Positions 4,204 through 44,720 of a stretch of 64,000 bases of DNA are shown here, one piece after another. The notes under the pieces were generated by a model. It made no database searches. It was not told where the DNA came from and worked only from the letters and a program-made list of their open reading frames with translations. Numbering within the stretch: position 1 is the stretch's first letter; every line of letters begins with the position of its first letter. Origin of the DNA: a virus; the IMG/VR virus record IMGVR_UViG_3300046532_001629, positions 1 through 64,000 of that record, one strand, 5' to 3'. The translations under genes were made by a program, and so were the position numbers.

Positions 4204-4482
4204 ATGTTCCTAAATAACTACATGGAATTTGTAGTCAGCCCAGTCGTTCTTTGGAACATCATCGTATCACTCATTGTATTTCCGATTGGTTTTATAGTGA
4301 GGTCGCTCACATCCGAACAAAAGCGGTTGGATATATTAATGAACAAAACCCGAGAAGAGATCGCAAAAGATTATGTCACTAGAGATCAAATTGAAGCAGA
4401 TTTTAGCAGACTAATGTCTACACTTGACCGAATGGACGAGAAGATAGACAAACTCCAAACCAAAACATACTTCCAAGAATAG
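4204..4482 (+). CDS. Small membrane-anchored coiled-coil protein
   Basis: A 92-residue protein with one N-terminal transmembrane helix (about residues 10-35, VVLWNIIVSLIVFPIGFIV). A charged heptad-like C-terminus follows (SEQKRLDILMNKTREEI... LDRMDEKIDKLQTK). GAGGA (4195-4199) precedes the ATG by 4 nt. This one-helix plus coiled-coil layout is seen in phage spanin- or holin-accessory proteins, but nothing here is specific. It sits between the oxygenase gene and the gp13 late promoter. Confidence 0.65.
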   Translation: MFLNNYMEFVVSPVVLWNIIVSLIVFPIGFIVRSLTSEQKRLDILMNKTREEIAKDYVTRDQIEADFSRLMSTLDRMDEKIDKLQTKTYFQE

Positions 4483-11925: not shown

Positions 11926-13464
11926 ATGGAAATATTCGGATTTGAAATCGCTCGTAAAAAAGACGAGCTACGTGCAACGACTATCAACAAAGGACAGTCG
12001 TTTGTTCCACCAGTTGATGATGACGGTACACCAGTCATCTCACAACAAGCAGGTGGGTTTATATCGGGTGGAGCCTATGGCTCCTATGTCGATATGGAAG
12101 GTGGTATCAAGAGTGAGATTGAACTCATTCGAAAATACCGAGAGACATCGCTAGTCCCTGAATGTGACTCGGCGATCGAAGACATTATCAATGAGTGTAT
12201 CACATCGGATAGTTCTGATAGGATAGTCACACTCGACCTCAGAGATGTTAAACTCTCTGATAGTATCAGAAAGAAGATACAAGACGAGTTTACTAACATT
12301 CTATCACTAATGAAGTTCAATCAGAACTCTCATGAATTATTCAGAAAATGGTACGTTGATGGAAGAATTTACTTCCATAAGGTCGTTGACAGTAAACGCC
12401 CTAAACTTGGTATTGTTGATATTAGGAACGTTGACCCCTTGAAGATTAAGAAGGTCAGAAATGTTGAAGAAGAGAAAGGTAAGGACGGCGTAACAAGAAT
12501 TAAAAAAATTGAAGAATTTTATGTCTTCAATGATAAAGGTTTTGATAAGACTAGTGCCGTAGAAGGTGCAACTCTTAGAATTGCCCCTGAGGCAGTATGT
12601 TATACTACTTCGGGATTGTTGGATTATAACAAAAATGCAGTAATTGGATATATGCACAAGGCATTGAAGACTGCAAATCAGTTATCGATGATGGAAGATG
12701 CACTAGTGATCTATAGATTGTCTAGAGCTCCCGAAAGAAGAATTTTTTATATTGATGTTGGTAATTTACCTAAGGCAAAGGCCGAACAGTATCTTTCAGA
12801 GACAATGAATAAGTACAGAAATAAACTTATTTACAATGCAGATACAGGTGAGATCAAAGACGACAGAAAACATATGAGTATGTTGGAAGATTTTTGGTTA
12901 CCAAGAAGAGAAGGTGGTAGAGGAACGGAGATATCTACATTGCCAGGCGGACAAAACCTTGCAGAGATTGATGATGTAGAGTACTTCAAGAAGAAGTTAT
13001 ACCAGTCTCTTAATGTACCATCGTCTAGGATGGAATCAGATAATGGTTTCAACATGGGCAGGTCTTCAGAGATTAATAGGGACGAGTTGAAGTTCAACAA
13101 GTTCACAAACAGACTTCAGAAGAAGTTTGCTAGAGTATTTACAGATATCTTGAGAACTCAGATTATCTTAAAAGAAATTGCAAATGCTGAAGAGTTTGAC
13201 AAGATTAAAGATTTTATCCAGTATGATTTTACTGCAGATAACCACTTCACTGAGTTGAAGGAACAGGAAATTTTTAAGGAAAGATTAGATGCACTTCAAA
13301 ATGTATCAGAATATGTTGGTAAATATTTCTCACAAGAATATGTTAGAAAATATATACTACGACAAACAGAAGAAGAGATTGAGACCATTGATAAACAAAT
13401 TTCTACCGAGAAAGAGGCAGGAGTTGGTGGAGACGAAGATGATGGTGGATTCTCACAGTATTAG
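11926..13464 (+). CDS. 20: Portal protein gp20-like
   Basis: A 512-residue portal vertex protein (T4 gp20: 524). It has YGSYVDMEGG near residue 50, KYRETSLVPECDSAIEDIINE, and the LDYNKNAVIGYMHKALKTANQLSMMEDALVIYR-type helix common to T4-like portals, plus RSSEINRDELKFNKF near the crown. It is the dodecameric ring that nucleates head assembly and docks the terminase. It probably comes from a leaderless late transcript. Confidence 0.95.
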   Translation: MEIFGFEIARKKDELRATTINKGQSFVPPVDDDGTPVISQQAGGFISGGAYGSYVDMEGGIKSEIELIRKYRETSLVPECDSAIEDIINECITSDSSDRIVTLDLRDVKLSDSIRKKIQDEFTNILSLMKFNQNSHELFRKWYVDGRIYFHKVVDSKRPKLGIVDIRNVDPLKIKKVRNVEEEKGKDGVTRIKKIEEFYVFNDKGFDKTSAVEGATLRIAPEAVCYTTSGLLDYNKNAVIGYMHKALKTANQLSMMEDALVIYRLSRAPERRIFYIDVGNLPKAKAEQYLSETMNKYRNKLIYNADTGEIKDDRKHMSMLEDFWLPRREGGRGTEISTLPGGQNLAEIDDVEYFKKKLYQSLNVPSSRMESDNGFNMGRSSEINRDELKFNKFTNRLQKKFARVFTDILRTQIILKEIANAEEFDKIKDFIQYDFTADNHFTELKEQEIFKERLDALQNVSEYVGKYFSQEYVRKYILRQTEEEIETIDKQISTEKEAGVGGDEDDGGFSQY

Positions 13465-26137: not shown

Positions 26138-27625
26138 ATGAAAACATTTAAAGAACATCTGTTAACCGAAACCCCGATGGCAGCAAATTTCGAGGATATC
26201 TATAAACGCAAGAATAAAGATAAGTTCTTAGACAAAGCAGTCAAGGGTGAACTTGAATTAGAAGCTGGTGGAAAGATGAAAGCAATTTCAAAGGATGACT
26301 TTGCATTAAAGACCCTTATGTCAGTGGATAGTGAAGATGCTATCGAAGACAAGCCTGCAATTAGAAAACACCTGAAGACTAACTGGGGTATTGGTAAAAT
26401 CGGTGACATTAGTAAGGATATGAACGGCCTTTCTAATAGAGAAGGTGGTAAGAATCCTAGTGGAGAAGATTGGGAATCTCTCATTGCAGTTGCAGTAAAC
26501 CAAATCAATGGTCTTAAATATAACATTGGAGCTGAGTGGGAACGTGCAGAAAAGTTTTGGCCTGATTACGAACTCCAAGCAATAAAACTAGGCAAGGAAT
26601 TTATCAGTAAACTTAAGGTTAAGAGTCTCAGACAATTAGGTTCATCAACCGCTGCAACATCCGCAACATGGGATGCACCTAACAAGACACCTAAAACAGA
26701 TTTAATAGACGGTAAACAACACATATCACTTAAGATGCATGGTAACTCTCAGTTGATGTCGGGTAAGAAAGAAGAGGTTCTTGCAACCTTTAAAGCTGCC
26801 CAAGAGGAGTTTGGAGAATCTACAGCAGGAAAGGTGGAAATCAAAAAGGTTATGGATACTCTTGAAGAGAAGATGATTACATTAACAAATAAAGGTTCAG
26901 TTAAATCGATTGACGCTTTGAGAGGAAAGACTGACCTTTCAGACAAAGAATTGGAGAGAATTGCAGAGTTAGACCAAGGTCGATTACAAGCAAAAGAAAT
27001 CAATGATGAATTAGACAAGATATTTCAATCACTACCTTTTAAATCACACGTTGCATTTGAAGCTGCAACAGGTAGAAGTAAATTTGCACCATCCCCCGAG
27101 GCAGTTGCAAACTTAGTAGTAGTGTTCAAAGAGAGTGGTAGTATATCAGATACATTAAAACTAGACACGGCTGCATCAGCCGGAATGGTACTTGCAAAGG
27201 GTAATGATTTTTATGTGTCCTTTAAGAGTGGTGGTGGTAATAGTTCCAAACCATATCTTTCATTGAGAACTAGAAAATTAAAGCTGACAAGTTTAAAAGC
27301 GGTTAATGCCTCCTATGCAGATGATACTTTCCGTAGTATAATTATGGAAGAGATAAACAAAGAAGGGTTACTTACAGAAGACATGCAACAACTAGACGAG
27401 TTTGCATTATTTAATAAACTTGTAAGTAAAGTTAAAGATGTGTCAAAGTCAGTTATCAGTAAAGTTGGTAAGGCAATGAAAGCTATCTTAGAAAGAGTCA
27501 AGAAAGCTTTCCAGTACATTTACAAACTAGGTAGACAAGCAGTCAGGGGATTAATGAACTTCTTTGGCGTGAAGCTCGATAAAGTGAAGATAACCAAAAC
27601 TGGTGGAATGGTATCACTAGTATAA
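26138..27625 (+). CDS. Candidate capsid-packaged protein with possible PD-(D/E)XK-like nuclease core
   Basis: A 495-residue late protein starting MKTFKEHLLTE-Thr. This resembles the T4 internal-protein capsid-targeting sequence (MKTYQEF-type, cut after Glu by gp21). A conserved region (GEDWESLIAVAVNQ near 109-122, KTDLIDGKQHISLK at 186-199, then NSQLMSGK) resembles a PD-(D/E)XK nuclease with Asp188 and an SLK in place of ExK; this is tentative. A second LLTE at 411-414 separates a basic amphipathic C-terminus. It may be packaged, processed and injected to act on host DNA. Confidence 0.55.
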   Translation: MKTFKEHLLTETPMAANFEDIYKRKNKDKFLDKAVKGELELEAGGKMKAISKDDFALKTLMSVDSEDAIEDKPAIRKHLKTNWGIGKIGDISKDMNGLSNREGGKNPSGEDWESLIAVAVNQINGLKYNIGAEWERAEKFWPDYELQAIKLGKEFISKLKVKSLRQLGSSTAATSATWDAPNKTPKTDLIDGKQHISLKMHGNSQLMSGKKEEVLATFKAAQEEFGESTAGKVEIKKVMDTLEEKMITLTNKGSVKSIDALRGKTDLSDKELERIAELDQGRLQAKEINDELDKIFQSLPFKSHVAFEAATGRSKFAPSPEAVANLVVVFKESGSISDTLKLDTAASAGMVLAKGNDFYVSFKSGGGNSSKPYLSLRTRKLKLTSLKAVNASYADDTFRSIIMEEINKEGLLTEDMQQLDEFALFNKLVSKVKDVSKSVISKVGKAMKAILERVKKAFQYIYKLGRQAVRGLMNFFGVKLDKVKITKTGGMVSLV

Positions 27626-37521: not shown

Positions 37522-37548
37522 AAAAGACACTTCGGTGTCTTTTTTTTT
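37522..37548 (+). terminator. Rho-independent terminator
   Basis: AGACAC(37525-37530)-TTCG-GTGTCT(37535-37540) flanked by A and T runs; the UUCG loop and 9-T tail make it strong. It isolates the curli island from the replication operon. Confidence 0.85.
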
Positions 37549-37568
37549 GGTCTAAAGTAATGGAACAC

Positions 37569-37575
37569 CTAAATA
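37569..37575 (+). promoter_or_regulatory. Late promoter CTAAATA, leaderless arrangement, first gene of the curli island
   Basis: CTAAATA, 5 nt (acact), ATG at 37581. An earlier in-frame ATG at 37560 lies upstream of the box and is unlikely to be used. Confidence 0.65.
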
Positions 37576-37580
37576 ACACT

Positions 37581-37877
37581 ATGGAACAGATATTTGATTT
37601 GATAGGAGAAGTGGGAGCCCCGATTGCAGGAAGTCTTGTGATGGGATTTTTCATATTCATAGTAATTAAACAGATACTAGAAGGGATTGTAGAATCGATT
37701 GGTACACTTACCATGTTCTGCACATCCTTAGAAAACCGTGCCAGAATGATGTCGAATGAGATGATTAAAATCGATCTCCTAGTGTCCAGTGCATTAGAAC
37801 TTAGACCCGACATCGACAGAGTTGCTCGTGCAGAAAACTTCATAGAAGATGGAAAACTGGATGTAAGGAGAGACTAG
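37581..37877 (+). CDS. Membrane-anchored helical protein before csgF
   Basis: A 98-residue protein with a hydrophobic helix (GAPIAGSLVMGFFIFIVIKQIL) followed by an amphipathic helical tail. Its layout matches the next protein, suggesting a duplicated or paired inner-membrane unit. The start at 37581 is set by the late box 5 nt upstream. Possible roles are an accessory of the curli-type exporter or a membrane-perturbing protein; neither is shown. Confidence 0.6.
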   Translation: MEQIFDLIGEVGAPIAGSLVMGFFIFIVIKQILEGIVESIGTLTMFCTSLENRARMMSNEMIKIDLLVSSALELRPDIDRVARAENFIEDGKLDVRRD

Positions 37878-38149
37878 TGGATATTGCTCAGGCTATATCC
37901 GACTACGGATTCCCAATAGTAATGTCAGTTGGACTGGGTTACTTCATCTATTATGTTTGGTGGTTCATCGGAGAACACATCGAACCCCAAATTGAAAAAA
38001 TGCATTTTGCACTTATTAAAGTGATAGATCAAGTTAGAATGTTAGATCAAGATTTAATTCGTTTGCAACAAAAGGTAAACGTGGTTCTCGAAATGAAGGA
38101 GAACCTAAAAAAGAAAGCAGGAGAAAACGATAATGGAAAAGAAAACTAA
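37877..38149 (+). CDS. YvrJ-like membrane/coiled-coil protein before csgF
   Basis: A 90-residue protein with a GTG start confirmed by AAGGAG (37865-37870) 6 nt upstream; it overlaps the preceding stop. ISDYGFPIVMSVGLGYFIYYVWW resembles the short YvrJ-type membrane motif (YGFPI), followed by a coiled coil (MLDQDLIRLQQKVNVVLEMKENL). Tandem with a similar protein and overlapping csgF, it may be part of the secretion unit. Confidence 0.6.
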   Translation: MDIAQAISDYGFPIVMSVGLGYFIYYVWWFIGEHIEPQIEKMHFALIKVIDQVRMLDQDLIRLQQKVNVVLEMKENLKKKAGENDNGKEN

Positions 38150-38618
38150 ACTAGTTCTGTGGGGTTCTGCAATTGTATTGTCACTTGCAATCTTTAGCAC
38201 AGGTGTTAAATCAGACGAAATAGTGTTTGGATTTAAGAGTCCGTCCTTCAGTGGTGCTGGCCAGTCGTCACACTATCTCACCATTGAGAACCAAGAGAAA
38301 TCAAGACGTGATAAAATTGAACAAGGTATAGAAGATAAGATTAAACAAGCAGAGAGAGATGCTTCGAACACTACACTAGCTAAGTTTTTGAGAAATGTGG
38401 AGAGCAGAATTTATGCTCAGATAGCAAAACAGTTAGTAGAGAATATGTTTTCTAATGGAGAGGGCGCAGATTACGGCACATTTACCATCGAAGGAAATAC
38501 TGTGACGTATGAGAAAATGATTGGTGAAGATGGTGGAGAATTTATAAGATTGACAATTGTATCTGAGGATGGAACAACAACGACTTTGGATATACCAGTC
38601 GGCACTGGCGGGTTCTAG
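38133..38618 (+). CDS. csgF: CsgF-like curli assembly factor
   Basis: A 161-residue exported protein: signal peptide (LVLWGSAIVLSLAIFSTGVKS), then EIVFGFKSPSFSG, matching the start of mature CsgF (FxFxxPxFGG). It has central helices and a C-terminal strand (RLTIVSEDGTTTTLDIPVG) like the TGxTxxIxV end of CsgF. E. coli CsgF has 138 residues; here an extra Lys/Glu/Arg-rich helix is inserted. In curli, CsgF sits at the CsgG pore and couples secretion to nucleation. The adjacent csgG supports the call. Confidence 0.75.
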   Translation: MEKKTKLVLWGSAIVLSLAIFSTGVKSDEIVFGFKSPSFSGAGQSSHYLTIENQEKSRRDKIEQGIEDKIKQAERDASNTTLAKFLRNVESRIYAQIAKQLVENMFSNGEGADYGTFTIEGNTVTYEKMIGEDGGEFIRLTIVSEDGTTTTLDIPVGTGGF

Positions 38619-38620
38619 AA

Positions 38621-39505
38621 GTGAGACAACTTGCAATAGTTGGCCTCTTGACGGTTTTGTTCACCACTGGGTGTGCAAGTGTTCCGTCTATGACTGATAG
38701 TTGCACGTCTATTGTAATGAGTAGAGTGGGAGAGTGTATTGAAGAAGCAGAGATAGTTAAGATACCCACGTATCAAGAACTTGCTGATCTTCCCCCAGCA
38801 ACGAATATGCCAGTGGTTGCAGTCTATGCTTTCCTAGATAAGACAGGACAACGAAAGAGAATGGATGGAGTCGCATCGTTCTCAACTGCAGTAACACAAG
38901 GTGCAGAATCATTTCTAATTGATGCACTTAAAACTGCAGGGAAAGGGAAGTGGTTTAGAGTAGTAGAACGAACAAGTCTTGATGCACTCGTAAGAGAGAG
39001 ACAGATCATTCGTTCTACTAGAGAAGATTTTGCAACGAAAGAAGGTAATGAAGATGCCCCAACAGGTATTCAACCTTTGCTCTTTGCAGGAATCCTACTG
39101 GAAGGTGGGATTGTTGGTTATGATACTAACATTGAAAGCGGTGGTAGAGGAGCAAGATTCCTAGGAATCGGGTCTTCTGTTTCTTATCGAAGAGATGTGG
39201 TTACTGTAAGTTTGAGAGGAATATCAACACTTACAGGTGAGATTTTGTTAAATGTGCAGACTAAGAAGACGATACTCAGCACAGGTGGAGGTTATGATGT
39301 ATTCCGTTTCGTTGATATGGATACGAAATTAGTGGAAATAGAAGATGGTGTGGCTTTTAATGAGGGAGTTACGAAAGCAACTCGTTCAGCAATAGAACTA
39401 GCCGTCCTCGAACTTATATACCAAGGACACGATAGAGGTTTTTGGGTAATTACGGATAAACATCTTAACGATGAACATCCAATAGGAGAAACAGATGAAG
39501 AATAA
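38621..39505 (+). CDS. csgG: CsgG-like outer-membrane secretion lipoprotein
   Basis: A 294-residue lipoprotein: signal peptide with lipobox TTGC (Cys18), then the CsgG core: PVVAVYAFLDKTGQR, WFRVVERTSLDALVRERQI, LLFAGILLEGGIVGYDTN, SYRRDVVTVSLRGISTLTGEIL. E. coli CsgG has 277 residues and forms a nonameric outer-membrane channel. The GTG start has only a weak GGCGGG upstream. In a phage this could export the curlin-like proteins or act as an outer-membrane pore. Confidence 0.9.
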   Translation: MRQLAIVGLLTVLFTTGCASVPSMTDSCTSIVMSRVGECIEEAEIVKIPTYQELADLPPATNMPVVAVYAFLDKTGQRKRMDGVASFSTAVTQGAESFLIDALKTAGKGKWFRVVERTSLDALVRERQIIRSTREDFATKEGNEDAPTGIQPLLFAGILLEGGIVGYDTNIESGGRGARFLGIGSSVSYRRDVVTVSLRGISTLTGEILLNVQTKKTILSTGGGYDVFRFVDMDTKLVEIEDGVAFNEGVTKATRSAIELAVLELIYQGHDRGFWVITDKHLNDEHPIGETDEE

Positions 39506-40223
39506 ATTATTACTCATTATGTTAACATTAGGATTATCATCTCAGGCTTTTGCTGGAGATGACGATAACGAAATATGGCTACAGCAAAGTGGTACTGGAT
39601 TGACTTTAAACTTGACCCAAAAAGGTTATGGTAACAAAGTTGGTGGAGATGACTTTAGTGGAACATCAATTGATATGATTTTAACTGGTGCAACAAACAG
39701 TTTAACTCTTATCCAGTATGGTGACTCTAACAAACTATACGGCCCTTTCCTTGCAGATACGTCAACAGTAAACTTAACGTTCACTGGTGATAGTAACTCG
39801 ATGGACTGGAACTTTGGTTATGTTGGAAGTGCAGATAGTGCCAATATGTTAGGAACCATTACAGGTTCATCTAACACATTTGACATCGATGTTGGTTACG
39901 AGGCATCTGCTGAATACTTAAACTGGGACTTAGTAACAACTGGTTCAAGTAACGTATTCACAACTAAAATAGATAGTGATAACGCCGTTTGGAATTGGAC
40001 TGTTACAGGTTCGTCAAACGACATCAATACACTCATGGCTGATGCTACAGATAATTCATTAACTGCAGTTCTAACTGGTTCTTCAAATGATATTGATATC
40101 ATTCAGAAGAGTGGTTCAGATACAGGTTGCCCAACTGGTCAATCTTGTAGTGGTATTATTGACGTATCCTTTGTGACCTCTAATGCAAATATTGACATCG
40201 TTCAACAAGACGATAACGATTAG
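39495..40223 (+). CDS. Curlin-like repeat protein 1
   Basis: A 242-residue secreted protein with a signal peptide (KLLLIMLTLGLSSQAFA) and repeats of about 25-35 residues built on T/S-G-(S/D)-S-N-x-hydrophobic strands. Examples are TNSLTLIQYGDSN, SNSMDWNF, SNTFDIDV, SNDINTL and SNDIDIIQ. Ser/Asn/Gln spacing resembles curlin (SxxxxxQxxxxN) and predicts a beta-solenoid/amyloid. It starts inside the csgG end and is the likely CsgG substrate. Asp-rich ends may keep it soluble. Confidence 0.7.
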   Translation: MKNKLLLIMLTLGLSSQAFAGDDDNEIWLQQSGTGLTLNLTQKGYGNKVGGDDFSGTSIDMILTGATNSLTLIQYGDSNKLYGPFLADTSTVNLTFTGDSNSMDWNFGYVGSADSANMLGTITGSSNTFDIDVGYEASAEYLNWDLVTTGSSNVFTTKIDSDNAVWNWTVTGSSNDINTLMADATDNSLTAVLTGSSNDIDIIQKSGSDTGCPTGQSCSGIIDVSFVTSNANIDIVQQDDND

Positions 40224-41322
40224 TTTTCTACTTATCGGTTCATTAGCACTTGGTGCTGAACCGATAGGGGAGATTACAGAATATAAAGGGTCGGCTGGAA
40301 TGTCACGTGACGGAGAGTCTTCCGTCATTGATGCTTCTGCCGAATCCGATGTGCTTATCTATGATACTGCACAGACTCAGAATGGACGAATGAAAATTCA
40401 GTTCATTGGTGATGAAGAATTAGAATTAACAGAACACTCAAAAGTTTGGATTGACGAGGTCTATTACGACCCCGACCCCTCAAAGTCAAAGATGGTCATG
40501 AGAATGGCATCAGGCACCGCTCGATTTGCTTCGGGTTTCGGTGGAAAGATAAAGAAAAGTAACATAAATATCAGTACACCTACTGCACAAATCACAGTTC
40601 GTGGCACCGACTTCACCACAAGTATTGATGAGATCGGAAGGTCATTGGTAATTTTACTGCCTGATAGATGGGGAAACCCTTCAGGAGTTGTAATTGTAAG
40701 TAATGCAGGAGGAACGGTGACACTAGACGAGGCTTACCAAGCAACGATGGTGAGTACATATGACGATTCTCCAACTAAACCAGTTGTAGTGAACGGTATA
40801 ACACCAAATTTGATTGATAACATGTTTATTGTTAATCCACCCGATGAGGTCACGAAACAAGTATCCGAAGAATCGAGTTCTTCAGAGAACGATTCGAGTA
40901 ATGTTCTTGATGTGGATTTTCTAGAATTCAATGATCTAGAAGAGGATTACTTCGAAGACGATGAATTGGAATACACAGAGCTCGACAGAGATTTATTGGA
41001 TGTTGATTTCTTACAGGATTTACTTGATGTTATCGTAGGAATAGACAAAAAGGTTGGACTAGATAGACAAGCTAGTAAAGCATTTGGAGTAGTAAGAATT
41101 GACGGAACACTTCCAGGCTTTGACAAGGATACACAATACTCAACTATTGTAGATTCAGGTCTAGGTCAGGTTTGGTTCTATAGGGAAGTTAGTGGAATTA
41201 TTTCCATTAGATTACCAATACACGCTCAGGCGAGTATTAGAACCATAACAGACGAAAAAGAGTCATCAATTACGATGGGTGATGGTTCGTCTCTAAATAT
41301 AACTATCACACAAACAAACTAG
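40183..41322 (+). CDS. FecR-domain secreted protein
   Basis: A 379-residue protein with a signal peptide (TISFLLIGSLALGA) and a FecR domain: GEITEYKGSAGM, ALYD-type QTQNGRMKIQFIGDEELELTEHSKV, and the conserved ISTPTAQITVRGTDFTTSI. The middle is acidic and Ser/Glu-rich, and the end is beta-rich. It overlaps curlin-like 1 by 41 nt in another frame. FecR-domain proteins sense or scaffold at the envelope, and fecR genes lie with csgG in several bacterial export loci. A periplasmic or surface partner of the fibre proteins is likely. Confidence 0.72.
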   Translation: MQILTSFNKTITISFLLIGSLALGAEPIGEITEYKGSAGMSRDGESSVIDASAESDVLIYDTAQTQNGRMKIQFIGDEELELTEHSKVWIDEVYYDPDPSKSKMVMRMASGTARFASGFGGKIKKSNINISTPTAQITVRGTDFTTSIDEIGRSLVILLPDRWGNPSGVVIVSNAGGTVTLDEAYQATMVSTYDDSPTKPVVVNGITPNLIDNMFIVNPPDEVTKQVSEESSSSENDSSNVLDVDFLEFNDLEEDYFEDDELEYTELDRDLLDVDFLQDLLDVIVGIDKKVGLDRQASKAFGVVRIDGTLPGFDKDTQYSTIVDSGLGQVWFYREVSGIISIRLPIHAQASIRTITDEKESSITMGDGSSLNITITQTN

Positions 41323-41331
41323 GAGATATTA

Positions 41332-41478
41332 ATGAATATTAGGGAAAAATTACGAGGGTGGCACGAAGATCAAATCTACGGATTTCAAAAGGCCACTCGA
41401 CTCGATGATTACCATATGTATTGGGTATCATTCGCAGAAGGGATTATACTTACATTATTATTTTTGTGGCTAATCTAA
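41332..41478 (+). CDS. Small C-tail-anchored membrane protein in the curli island
   Basis: A 48-residue protein with AGGAG (41321-41325) 6 nt upstream. A charged N-terminal part (REKLRGWHEDQIYGFQKATRLDD) precedes one C-terminal hydrophobic helix (FAEGIILTLLFLWLI). It sits between fecR and curlin-like 2, probably at the inner membrane. No family recognised. Confidence 0.55.
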   Translation: MNIREKLRGWHEDQIYGFQKATRLDDYHMYWVSFAEGIILTLLFLWLI

Positions 41479-41482
41479 ACAC

Positions 41483-42277
41483 ATGAAAAAGTTTTTATCA
41501 TTCTTAGTTATGTTACCTTTGGTAGTCTTCGCAACTGATGACAACAAGGTTGATGTGAACACGACAGGGAGTCAGTCAAACGACTCCCTTGTCTTCAATG
41601 TAACTCAAATAGGTTACGACAACGACACCATCTTTACAATAGGTGGGTCATCAAATTCAATACTCATCAAGCAAGAAGGAAACAACAACGAGATTTCCTT
41701 CGTAGATTACTGGGGTTCGGGAGAAACTTGGGGTGGAGACCTCGATGGTAATTCTAATGCATTGCACTTCGAACAAAGTGGAACTGGTTCTAAGAACGAT
41801 ATAGGATTCCACATACAAGGAAATACCAATGCTGTTCGATGGGGACAAGGAACAGTACTCAATAATTCATCCGACACCACATTTGATTCTGCCTCAGCTG
41901 TCGCAGACGATGGTGGTCATAAACTAAACCTAGACATCCATGGAAGTGATAACACACTCATAGGATATCAGAAATCCAATTTGGTAAATGGTGGAGACCA
42001 TACTGCAACGGTATATTTTTACAGCGATAATAACACTGCATGGTTACGGCAACAAGGTGCTGGTGATAAGACTCTCTATCTGAGAACGAACAACGATGAT
42101 AACGTAGTAAACAGTAATCAAAAAGGAAGTGGGGATCATACGACATCCATTACACTTGGTGGTTCATACGGAACTACACTCAACCTAATACAAAATAGTT
42201 CATCAAACCAGTCATACAACCTTACACAAAGCTGCGTCACAGCTGGTGGTTGTACACTAACAATGACACAAGAATAA
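41483..42277 (+). CDS. Curlin-like repeat protein 2
   Basis: A 264-residue secreted protein: signal peptide (FLSFLVMLPLVVFA), then curlin-type strands such as SNSILIKQEGNNNEISF, SNALHFEQSGTGSKNDIGF, NTAWLRQQGAGDKTLYL and TTLNLIQNSSSNQSYNLTQ. The Ser-x5-Gln-x4-Asn-x5-Gln pattern is clearer than in protein 1. Two Cys near the end (SCVTAGGC) may form a disulfide. The two proteins could be a major/minor fibre pair analogous to CsgA/CsgB. Confidence 0.72.
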   Translation: MKKFLSFLVMLPLVVFATDDNKVDVNTTGSQSNDSLVFNVTQIGYDNDTIFTIGGSSNSILIKQEGNNNEISFVDYWGSGETWGGDLDGNSNALHFEQSGTGSKNDIGFHIQGNTNAVRWGQGTVLNNSSDTTFDSASAVADDGGHKLNLDIHGSDNTLIGYQKSNLVNGGDHTATVYFYSDNNTAWLRQQGAGDKTLYLRTNNDDNVVNSNQKGSGDHTTSITLGGSYGTTLNLIQNSSSNQSYNLTQSCVTAGGCTLTMTQE

Positions 42278-42414
42278 TGGATTCACGAACACTCATAATG
42301 GTAAACGAATACCGAATCTCCCAACGCAAAAAGTTTTGGAGAAAGATTCTTGCAGCGTTTATTGCAGGAACTTGTCTTGGTCTTGCACTTTATGTTTTCT
42401 TTTACCATATGTAA
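42277..42414 (+). CDS. Small one-helix membrane protein in the curli island
   Basis: A 45-residue ORF overlapping the curlin-like 2 stop (TAATG). A basic N-terminus (YRISQRKKFWRK) precedes one hydrophobic helix (ILAAFIAGTCLGLALYVFFY). The positive-inside rule predicts the N-terminus in the cytoplasm. It lies directly before the iscU late promoter. Function unknown. Confidence 0.55.
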   Translation: MDSRTLIMVNEYRISQRKKFWRKILAAFIAGTCLGLALYVFFYHM

Positions 42415-42417
42415 ACC

Positions 42418-42424
42418 CTAAATA
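42418..42424 (+). promoter_or_regulatory. Late promoter CTAAATA, leaderless arrangement before iscU
   Basis: CTAAATA, 5 nt (actat), ATG at 42430. Confidence 0.65.
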
Positions 42425-42429
42425 ACTAT

Positions 42430-42861
42430 ATGGCATATTCTAAAGAAGTAGTAGAACGGTTTGAAGCAGTAATTGCTAACCCTCTAAAACATGCTGTCGG
42501 TTCACTCGACAGGAAAAACCCCAAGGTTGCAACAGGACTTGCAGGAGCTCCTGCATGTGGTGATGTGATGCAACTACAACTCTTACTTGATGACAACGAA
42601 AAGATTGTTGATGTCAAATTCAAGACTTACGGATGTGGAAGTGCAATTGCATCTTCGTCATTGTTCGTAGATTTAATGATGGGTAAGACGATTGCAGAAG
42701 CAAAACTAATCAAAGACAAAGACATTGCAGATGCACTACAACTTCCACCAATCAAATTACATTGTTCAGTACTAGCCGAGGACGCCATCAAACAAGCGAT
42801 GGTGGATTACGAGTCAAAACAATCAAAAGACTACAAACACCCGATCTTAGATCACGTTTGA
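42430..42861 (+). CDS. iscU: IscU-like iron-sulfur cluster scaffold
   Basis: A 143-residue protein with the full IscU ligand set: PACGD (Cys43, Asp45), YGCGSAIASSS (Cys69) and PPIKLHCSVLAEDAI (His111, Cys112). It assembles Fe-S clusters for transfer to target enzymes. No IscS or other isc gene is nearby, so host partners would be needed. It is late-expressed and presumably leaderless, and followed by the adenylate cyclase. It may support Fe enzymes during late infection. Confidence 0.9.
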   Translation: MAYSKEVVERFEAVIANPLKHAVGSLDRKNPKVATGLAGAPACGDVMQLQLLLDDNEKIVDVKFKTYGCGSAIASSSLFVDLMMGKTIAEAKLIKDKDIADALQLPPIKLHCSVLAEDAIKQAMVDYESKQSKDYKHPILDHV

Positions 42862-42878
42862 TTCAGAGGTGACAACTA

Positions 42879-44720
42879 GTGTATAGTTGGAAATCCGTTT
42901 TAGTAACCATTGCGTTACTGCTCACACTTAAGATTTGGAATCCGTATTTCATTGAAAACATTTCGTGGACATGGTTTGATTACCTACACCAATCACAAGA
43001 AATTGTCCAAGTTGATGATATTGTTTTGGTGGACATCGATGAGAGATCGTTGGAAGAATTCGGTCAATATCCCATACCTCGGGGCATTTATCGTGACCTT
43101 CTCCTTAACAGTCATTTCTCTAATACCAGTGTCTTTACCATACTCTTTAGTGAACCTGATCGTGACCCCCTACAGGACGAGATTCTCTCAGAGGGACTTG
43201 TCAATCGATTGACAATCATATCCTCTTCACCAACTATTCAAAAAGACAGTGGCAGTGCGCCATTCGTTGGTAACTCTACATTCGGTGGAGGTGACGCAAA
43301 GAATTGGTTATGGAATTTCTCAGGTATAACATCTCCCCTTAAGATACTTCAGGATAATACTTACGGTGTTGGAGTGAGTGTTGCAACACCTAGTGTAACA
43401 GGAACACCAAACTTTGACGGCACAACACGGTCTGCACCCCTCATTGTTACTGCAAACAATCAAGTCTATCCATCCATTGCACTCGAAACACTTCGTGCAT
43501 TAAAAGACCAACCAAGTTACCAAACAAAAATTACTCCTGAGATGGGAGTGGAGTGGATTAGGATGGGAAGAGATAAACCTATCTCCACCACCCCAACCAG
43601 TGATGTTATGGTGTCCTATTGGAATGGTTTCCAAAGGATTTCTGCTGTAGACCTACCCGACTCTAACCTAGAGAATAAGATTTTAGTGTGGGGGTTAACT
43701 GCAGAGGGATTGAACAATCCAGTTTCAACTCCAGTGGGAGTAATGTATCCCCACGAAGTTCAAGCACACCTAATTCAAACCGTCTTGACAGGAGTTCAAA
43801 TAAAACAATCCTACTATCTTGAATTGCTTGAATCTGTTCTTCTTCTGATAAGTTTGATAATGATAATGGTGATGGTTTACAAACTGCCCACAGCTCTTTC
43901 GGGGGTAGTGAGTCTAGGACTTGTAGTACTTCAGGTGGGTGGGAGTTATTACATTTGGACTTCAGAGCTCGTTCTTTTCGATACCTTCTTTTCATCTATG
44001 GCCTCCTTAGTAGTGTTTGGTCATGCATCTTTCAATCAATACTATACAACCTACAAACTCAAAGAAGAAATCAAGAAGCAGTTCCAAAAGTATTTATCTC
44101 CTGACATGGTTGACGCACTCGCAAAAGACCCATCTTTATTGAAATTAGGTGGAGATAGAAAGGAACTTACATTCATGTTTATGGACATCTGTGGATTCAC
44201 CCCTATAAGCGAACACTACATGAAACAAGATGACCCCGAAGGATTAGTAGAACTGATTAACAAATTCCTTGACATGCAGACTAAGATAATCCTAAATAAT
44301 GGTGGTACTATAGACAAGTATATGGGCGACTGTATCATGTCATTTTGGAATGCACCTCTTGATTGTCCCGAACATGCAGAACTTGCCGTCAAGTCTGCAG
44401 AAGAGATATTAATTGCAACCAAGGAACTTAATGACGAACTCAAACCTCTCGGTCTTCCACCCATTAACGTGGGCATTGGTATTAATACTGGCGAGTGTAT
44501 CGTTGGAAACATGGGCTCAGAACTTAGATTTGACTATTCCGTCATTGGAGATGCCGTCAACCTTGGTGCTAGACTCGAAAGCCAAACACGAAATTATGAT
44601 GGGGTGGACGTGTTGTTGGGCGAAGAAACATATCGACAGTGTCCATCTAGAACATTCTCTGAAGTTGACAGAATCACAGTCAAGGGTAAATCAGAACCAG
44701 TTACAGTTTACACTATCTGA
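42879..44720 (+). CDS. CHASE2-domain adenylate cyclase (class III)
   Basis: A 613-residue membrane receptor cyclase. A first helix (~8-20) leads into a periplasmic CHASE2 sensor (~30-305, with DDIVLVDIDERSLEEFGQYPIPR). Three helices (~312-385) and a linker precede a class III catalytic domain. All catalytic residues are visible: metal Asp436 (FMDICGFT) and Asp484 (DKYMGD), adenine-selecting Lys480 and Asp558, and transition-state Asn561 and Arg565 (NLGARLES). It therefore should make cAMP in response to an extracytoplasmic signal. GTG start with GAGG 9 nt upstream. Confidence 0.9.
   Translation: MYSWKSVLVTIALLLTLKIWNPYFIENISWTWFDYLHQSQEIVQVDDIVLVDIDERSLEEFGQYPIPRGIYRDLLLNSHFSNTSVFTILFSEPDRDPLQDEILSEGLVNRLTIISSSPTIQKDSGSAPFVGNSTFGGGDAKNWLWNFSGITSPLKILQDNTYGVGVSVATPSVTGTPNFDGTTRSAPLIVTANNQVYPSIALETLRALKDQPSYQTKITPEMGVEWIRMGRDKPISTTPTSDVMVSYWNGFQRISAVDLPDSNLENKILVWGLTAEGLNNPVSTPVGVMYPHEVQAHLIQTVLTGVQIKQSYYLELLESVLLLISLIMIMVMVYKLPTALSGVVSLGLVVLQVGGSYYIWTSELVLFDTFFSSMASLVVFGHASFNQYYTTYKLKEEIKKQFQKYLSPDMVDALAKDPSLLKLGGDRKELTFMFMDICGFTPISEHYMKQDDPEGLVELINKFLDMQTKIILNNGGTIDKYMGDCIMSFWNAPLDCPEHAELAVKSAEEILIATKELNDELKPLGLPPINVGIGINTGECIVGNMGSELRFDYSVIGDAVNLGARLESQTRNYDGVDVLLGEETYRQCPSRTFSEVDRITVKGKSEPVTVYTI

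Follow-up and report, generated by a model that had tools for sequence, protein, structure and literature searches.

A probable late-expressed curli secretion module with an exchangeable curlin in a T4-like marine phage

Identification of the module

We analysed a 64,000-nucleotide stretch of viral DNA (hereafter the window; positions 1–64,000 of IMG/VR record IMGVR_UViG_3300046532_001629, a 69,778-base virus fragment; window G+C content 38.5%) and found at 37569–44720, on the + strand like the terminator ahead of it, a run of genes from a T4-like marine phage that probably constitutes a type VIII (curli) secretion module, expressed late and exporting curlin fibres on to the infected cell. As expected for type VIII secretion, it encodes a CsgG homologue with a lipobox, a CsgF homologue with an N-terminal CsgG-binding peptide and curlin-repeat substrates (named Cur1 and Cur2), accompanied by a secreted FecR-domain protein and a CHASE2-adenylate cyclase. 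In the mechanism that we propose, the T4-type late transcription machinery would read a single operon from a leaderless promoter late in infection, CsgG would form a lipoprotein pore in the outer membrane, and CsgF would dock in its mouth via the N-terminal peptide. Cur1 and Cur2 would then pass through the pore and assemble outside as curlin fibres, with the conserved Cur1 as base or nucleator and the variable Cur2 as the exposed part, and the FecR protein and the cyclase would form a sensor pair converting an envelope signal into cyclic AMP (cAMP).

The source is T4-like by gene content (terminase, sheath, tube, portal, prohead protease, gp45, gp44, gp62, regA and gp43). The module lies in the replication region, with regA (36584) on one side and gp43 (51924) on the other, yet it has a late promoter of its own, which we counted in favour of a late module. 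The original prediction, made from the DNA letters alone, had placed CsgF, CsgG, two curlin-like proteins and a secreted FecR-domain protein at 37569–42414. This gene set was confirmed, but the end was set too short: the module continues on this strand through an IscU-type protein to the cyclase, ending at 44720, and all relatives whose contigs are long enough to tell have the cyclase (18/18). The prediction had also mentioned csgGF-type genes in pelagimyophages. Such genes are indeed published for these and related phages, in 2020 and 2022 (PMC7029224, PMC9004378, PMC9599517), but this was incomplete, as a 2022 study described the whole module, including substrates, FecR and cyclase (Wittmers et al., PMC9599517). 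New relative to those three studies are the fixed leaderless late promoter, the exchange of Cur2, the FecR–CHASE2 pairing, the lack of a kinase domain in the first two gene products and the retention of the CsgF peptide.

The CsgG/CsgF pore

CsgG (38621–39505; GTG start, lipobox TTGC18) matched the CsgG family (PF03783, E=1e-46), and its profile matched solved CsgG pores with E=1.4e-62; the lipobox residues Gly17–Cys18 were invariant in the alignment. CsgF (38133–38618) passed the profile check that the original prediction had proposed for it (PF10614, E=1.2e-12). Its N-terminal peptide FGFKSPSFSG contains the motif [NS]P-x-F-x-G, which aligned with that of bacterial CsgF, and F34, P37, F39 and G41 were invariant or almost so in phage and bacterial sequences alike; the residues of this peptide that are seated in the CsgG mouth are listed in PMC12311626. 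It was argued previously that phage CsgF has diverged and possibly does not bind CsgG (PMC9004378). Since most of the pore-binding peptide is kept, our alignment goes against such divergence, and binding of CsgG by phage CsgF is predicted.

The curlin-repeat substrates

Curlin repeats (PF07012) were found at four places in the 69.8-kb record, all of them within Cur1 (39495–40223; with a signal peptide) and Cur2 (41483–42277), and each protein passed the PF07012 cut-off when its repeats were summed. With the Cur2 profile, solved CsgA structures came first (8c50, E=2.6e-5; 8enq, E=1.9e-4); the counterpart of Cur1 in the phage HTVC008M is annotated as CsgB-like. For each of the two proteins, at least one definition of the pattern gave more strand-turn motifs ending in G-x-x-N than shuffled sequences did, and the TGSSN ladder of Cur1 was likewise above shuffles. 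AlphaFold2 predicted repetitive all-beta folds for Cur1 (predicted local distance difference test, pLDDT, 78.3; predicted template modelling score, pTM, 0.75) and for Cur2 (pLDDT 76.8; pTM 0.79), and many of the weak Foldseek matches of these models were beta-helix or solenoid proteins. A third curlin was looked for in the gap before the cyclase and none was found; this gap carries other cargo.

Conservation of the module

We collected relatives by CsgG similarity (80 IMG/VR loci plus the phages HTVC008M and Melnitz, which are not mutually independent) and counted the presence of each gene only where the contig was long enough to tell. The two small genes at the head of the module, TM1 and TM2, were present in 75/75 and 76/76 relatives respectively, CsgF in 76/76, Cur1 in 65/65, FecR in 52/52, a gene for a 48-amino-acid protein in 48/50 and Cur2 in 30/30. 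Thus the export genes and the repeat proteins are conserved together, the outcome on which the original prediction had staked its reading of substrates lying beside the pore.

Matches were also obtained in contigs assigned to bacterial metagenome-assembled genomes (called Saprospirales, Sphingobacteriales and others), which at face value suggest a bacterial ancestor of the module. We rejected this reading for the contigs that carry the whole module: in one of them (L086) the module has the same replication-gene flanks as in the phage, and these contigs are thus probably misbinned phage. The same probably holds for the set with whole or partial modules filed under various bacteria (L084–L092, L094 and L101). 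Conversely, a 1499-base entry named Salmonella phage S.Kent 1-2-1 (OR851715.1) carries csgG and is more likely to be host DNA than phage.

A predicted leaderless late promoter

Upstream of the module, an intrinsic terminator read from the sequence (AGACAC-TTCG-GTGTCT plus a T-run; stem 37525–37540, T-run to 37548) closes the preceding transcription unit. It is followed by a T4-type late promoter element, CTAAATA (37569–37575), and a 5-nucleotide spacer (to 37580) ahead of the ATG at 37581. We compared 41 distinct upstream sequences, 39 from IMG/VR plus those of HTVC008M and Melnitz. A T-run of at least six within 70 nucleotides upstream was present in 37/41. TAAATA stood exactly 5 nucleotides ahead of the ATG in all 39 IMG/VR regions, and 18 of these 39 had the full TATAAATA, with TA ahead of TAAATA; the arrangement was not seen at the first module gene of HTVC008M or Melnitz. 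The late promoter behind a strong terminator in the original prediction was thereby borne out. In T4 numbering the late element covers −13 to −6, and with the fixed 5-nucleotide spacing the predicted transcription start is the A of the ATG itself, giving a leaderless mRNA. Accordingly, TM1 most likely starts at 37581 instead of at 37560, the position chosen by the open-reading-frame finder. Late-promoter prediction in pelagimyophages was tried earlier and reported to be unsuccessful (PMC7029224).

A scan of the window yielded 15 such motifs with an ATG within 18 nucleotides; the spacing was 5 in seven of them, including that of the module, and the other eight were scattered over other spacings. 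A second CTAAATA-5-nucleotide-ATG element (42418–42429) precedes the IscU gene, and the portal gene at 11926, one of the seven, is arranged in the same way as the module promoter. Further genes in the window with TAAATA 5 nucleotides ahead of the ATG lie at 26138, 54458, 61138 and 4222, and leaderless late transcription may be common across this phage group. The sharing of a promoter class with a structural gene would also fit a role in which the curlins serve no purpose for the living cell but coat released virions or form a sticky matrix that outlasts lysis. We consider this improbable, since the presence of CsgG, CsgF and signal peptides suggests that intact cells do the exporting. For the module itself, the promoter argues for late expression, a timing that speaks against early exclusion of other phages and against nutrient uptake.

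Exchange of Cur2

Median identity to the window protein was approximately 74–84% for TM1, TM2, CsgF, CsgG, Cur1, FecR and the cyclase and approximately 65% for the 48-amino-acid protein, and it was 43% for Cur2. In one pair of relatives (L060 and L065), CsgG was 95% and FecR 92% identical, but Cur2 only 37%. The opposite pattern was observed between the window and L043: the synonymous divergence (dS) was 0.17 in Cur2 and 0.90–2.27 in the other genes, and the nucleotide identity reached 0.95–0.99 between ~41630 and the Cur2 end, dropping on either side. This Cur2-limited fall in dS, together with the bounded tract of identity, indicates recombination of Cur2 alone. Cur2 thus appears to be swapped among phages like a serotype antigen, which suggests that the surface of the fibre matters and not the pore alone.

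Such variation bears on what the fibres are for. Genes for exclusion tend to be expressed early, as in T4, but the promoter of this operon is of the late type and strictly conserved, and we regard as unlikely the view that the infected cell is shielded from competing phages by fibres or by an occupied pore. It does agree with the surface location, serotype-like variation of Cur2 is what an arms race with competitors might produce, and it has been proposed previously (PMC9599517). A more elaborate possibility, which we put forward as a speculation of similarly low probability, is that Cur2 is a variable surface identity tag whose alleles are recombined on a conserved base for export and anchoring and displayed only late, while a borrowed FecR–CHASE2 cyclase pair reports the status of fibre or envelope as cAMP; the fibre-coated, self-monitoring cell would thereby select what sticks to it.

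The FecR-domain protein and the CHASE2-adenylate cyclase

The FecR protein (40183–41322; PF04773, E=5e-9; phrog_37870, E=6.9e-66) has a hydrophobic signal segment followed by PF04773 as the sole domain detected, without the anti-sigma part of Escherichia coli FecR. The cyclase (42879–44720) combines a CHASE2 domain (PF05226, E=5.2e-30) with transmembrane segments and a cyclase domain (PF00211, E=2e-16) in which the catalytic motifs are intact; in one of the putatively misbinned contigs (L091, 4825–6663) it is split into two open frames by a frameshift or an assembly error.

We examined 20 alphaproteobacterial genomes that had been picked by their CHASE2 matches irrespective of FecR. A FecR domain lay within 3 kb of CHASE2 at 20 of the 46 CHASE2 places listed, compared with 0.28 expected, and in annotated plasmid loci FecR stood beside a cyclase in 4/4. 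A tblastn search of plasmids with FecR gave no match. No FecR, cyclase, TM1 or TM2 was detected with the viral profiles in nine bacterial csg loci, although these profiles may miss a distant FecR. FecR and CHASE2 are thus a curli-independent pair in Alphaproteobacteria. A comparable arrangement is known from a Burkholderia biofilm operon (BiofilmReg, PMC5192318), where a secreted FecR-domain protein stands beside a CHASE2 sensor kinase; the phage differs in having an adenylate cyclase as output, not a histidine kinase, and in linking the pair to curli export.

The FecR of the phage module has been labelled an iron-dependent regulator (PMC9599517), a label made doubtful by the pairing in bacteria. 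A role as an iron-citrate regulator is also doubtful, given that PF04773 occurs alone and neither FecI nor FecA was matched among the module proteins scanned. The same findings bear on the published suggestion that the CsgG pore admits cofactors or iron complexes under such a regulator. Besides the FecR domain, the failure to find the CsgE gate in the record and the adjoining IscU speak for uptake, but late expression would hardly be timed to feed replication and the role leaves CsgF and the curlins unexplained, so that we rate it as the least probable of the alternatives. By analogy with the bacterial pairs, a sensor pair formed by FecR and the cyclase would be the simpler reading.

TM1, TM2 and a possible role in lysis

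TM1 (37581–37877; 98 amino acids, phrog_18771) has an N-terminal transmembrane segment and a basic C-terminal tail, and TM2 (37877–38149; 90 amino acids) is its membrane/coiled-coil paralogue. The genes ahead of csgF were previously labelled histidine kinases (PMC9599517). We rejected this assignment, as no HisKA or HATPase domain was found at Pfam E≤1 in 18 TM1/TM2 family members of 81–127 amino acids. Among phage isolates the family occurs only in HTVC008M and Melnitz strains, which also carry csgG. Twelve of the 18 members weakly matched a holin family (PHROG 4898; best E=7.7e-5), partly over the first 20 residues only, and a holin identity is a lead only. Elsewhere in the window, a small protein encoded at 4222–4482 in the structural region, with an N-terminal membrane segment, a coiled-coil-like tail and a late element ahead, is another possible holin candidate.

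These matches, the position of TM1/TM2 at the operon head and the late promoter would suit a function in lysis or egress, in which the CsgG/CsgF outer-membrane pore times lysis, perhaps together with TM1/TM2 acting as a holin-like pair in the inner membrane, the curlins being secondary; a pore timing lysis was proposed for Melnitz (PMC9004378). We consider this very unlikely. Apart from the weakness of the holin matches, the curlins are never lost, the peptide retained in CsgF goes against the divergence argument underlying the pinholin idea, and a pore-only role leaves the exchange of Cur2, the FecR protein and the cyclase unexplained. For both the lysis role and the superinfection-blocking role raised in the original prediction, our analysis gained no evidence.

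Small membrane proteins and the cargo slot

The 48-amino-acid membrane protein adjoining FecR (41332–41478) has a transmembrane segment at residues 30–48, and a 45-amino-acid membrane protein (42277–42414) follows Cur2 and is found in some relatives. Between Cur2 and the cyclase lies a variable slot. In the window it contains an IscU-type iron–sulfur scaffold protein (42430–42861; PF01592, 9.3e-39; TIGR01999, 4.6e-49) with Cys43, Cys69 and Cys112 kept, which is present in 6/20 relatives; elsewhere it bears other cargo (L042 11774–12349, L067 11500–12075, L065 9064–9657 and L013 11527–11796), the types being a 191-amino-acid protein, a 197-amino-acid protein resembling 2OG-Fe(II) oxygenase and an acidic membrane protein of 85–90 amino acids.

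Comparison with known systems

The gene order is shared with the pelagiphage module of HTVC008M (gp11–gp19, PMC9599517), namely two small genes, CsgF, CsgG, CsgA/B, FecR, CsgA/B and adenylate cyclase. The two differ in that CsgG is only 47% identical, IscU occupies the cargo slot here and the leaderless late promoter element is not seen at this gene in HTVC008M. The order is also that of the Melnitz operon (Buchholz et al. 2022, PMC9004378), for which no csgA/csgB was reported, whereas here both curlins were identified. CsgF, CsgG and curlin substrates are held in common with the bacterial csg systems of E. coli and Alphaproteobacteria, to which the phage adds TM1/TM2, FecR and the CHASE2-cyclase.

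Several observations weigh against a working curli module. The Cur1 profile fell below significance against solved CsgA (8enq, E=0.34), making it a weak curlin by sequence; the structural models of both curlins are of moderate confidence (pLDDT 77–78); and Foldseek found no significant PDB match for either. Where the original prediction expected a beta-solenoid, the models thus gave repetitive all-beta folds with no significant match to a known structure, while its curlin-like repeats beside the pore were confirmed by the family searches. Moreover, the conserved Asn of the CsgF NP motif is Ser in this phage, the late promoter is a prediction from sequence, and Melnitz-infected cultures did not clump (PMC9004378). 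Finally, the gate CsgE and the chaperone CsgC, which E. coli has but not every curli system, were already noted as not obvious in the original prediction. Neither was matched at E≤1 anywhere in the record, and CsgE did not exceed the cut-off in relatives measuring 146 and 154 kb, so that pore gating and the prevention of aggregation must work differently here. However, alphaproteobacterial curli modules were also reported without CsgE and CsgC (PMC9599517), and the lack of both does not exclude membership of the curli family. Taken together, our results support an export module of curli type that is expressed late and in which the substrates are encoded next to the pore.

Implications

As to its benefit, we favour, tentatively, the published idea of 'sibling capture', in which the surface fibres would keep new virions or neighbouring cells attached to one another, and rank it above protection from competing phages. 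Curli encoded by phages are reported to occur in all parts of the ocean (PMC9599517). Fewer options for the role of the fibres are left by the predicted late, leaderless expression, by the swapping of the distal curlin and by the FecR–CHASE2 pair, all of which give direct tests of it. If the fibres work, planktonic bacteria that have no curli would become coated with sticky amyloid shortly before they lyse, and such a coat, if real, would matter for aggregation, for the rates at which phages encounter cells and for carbon export.

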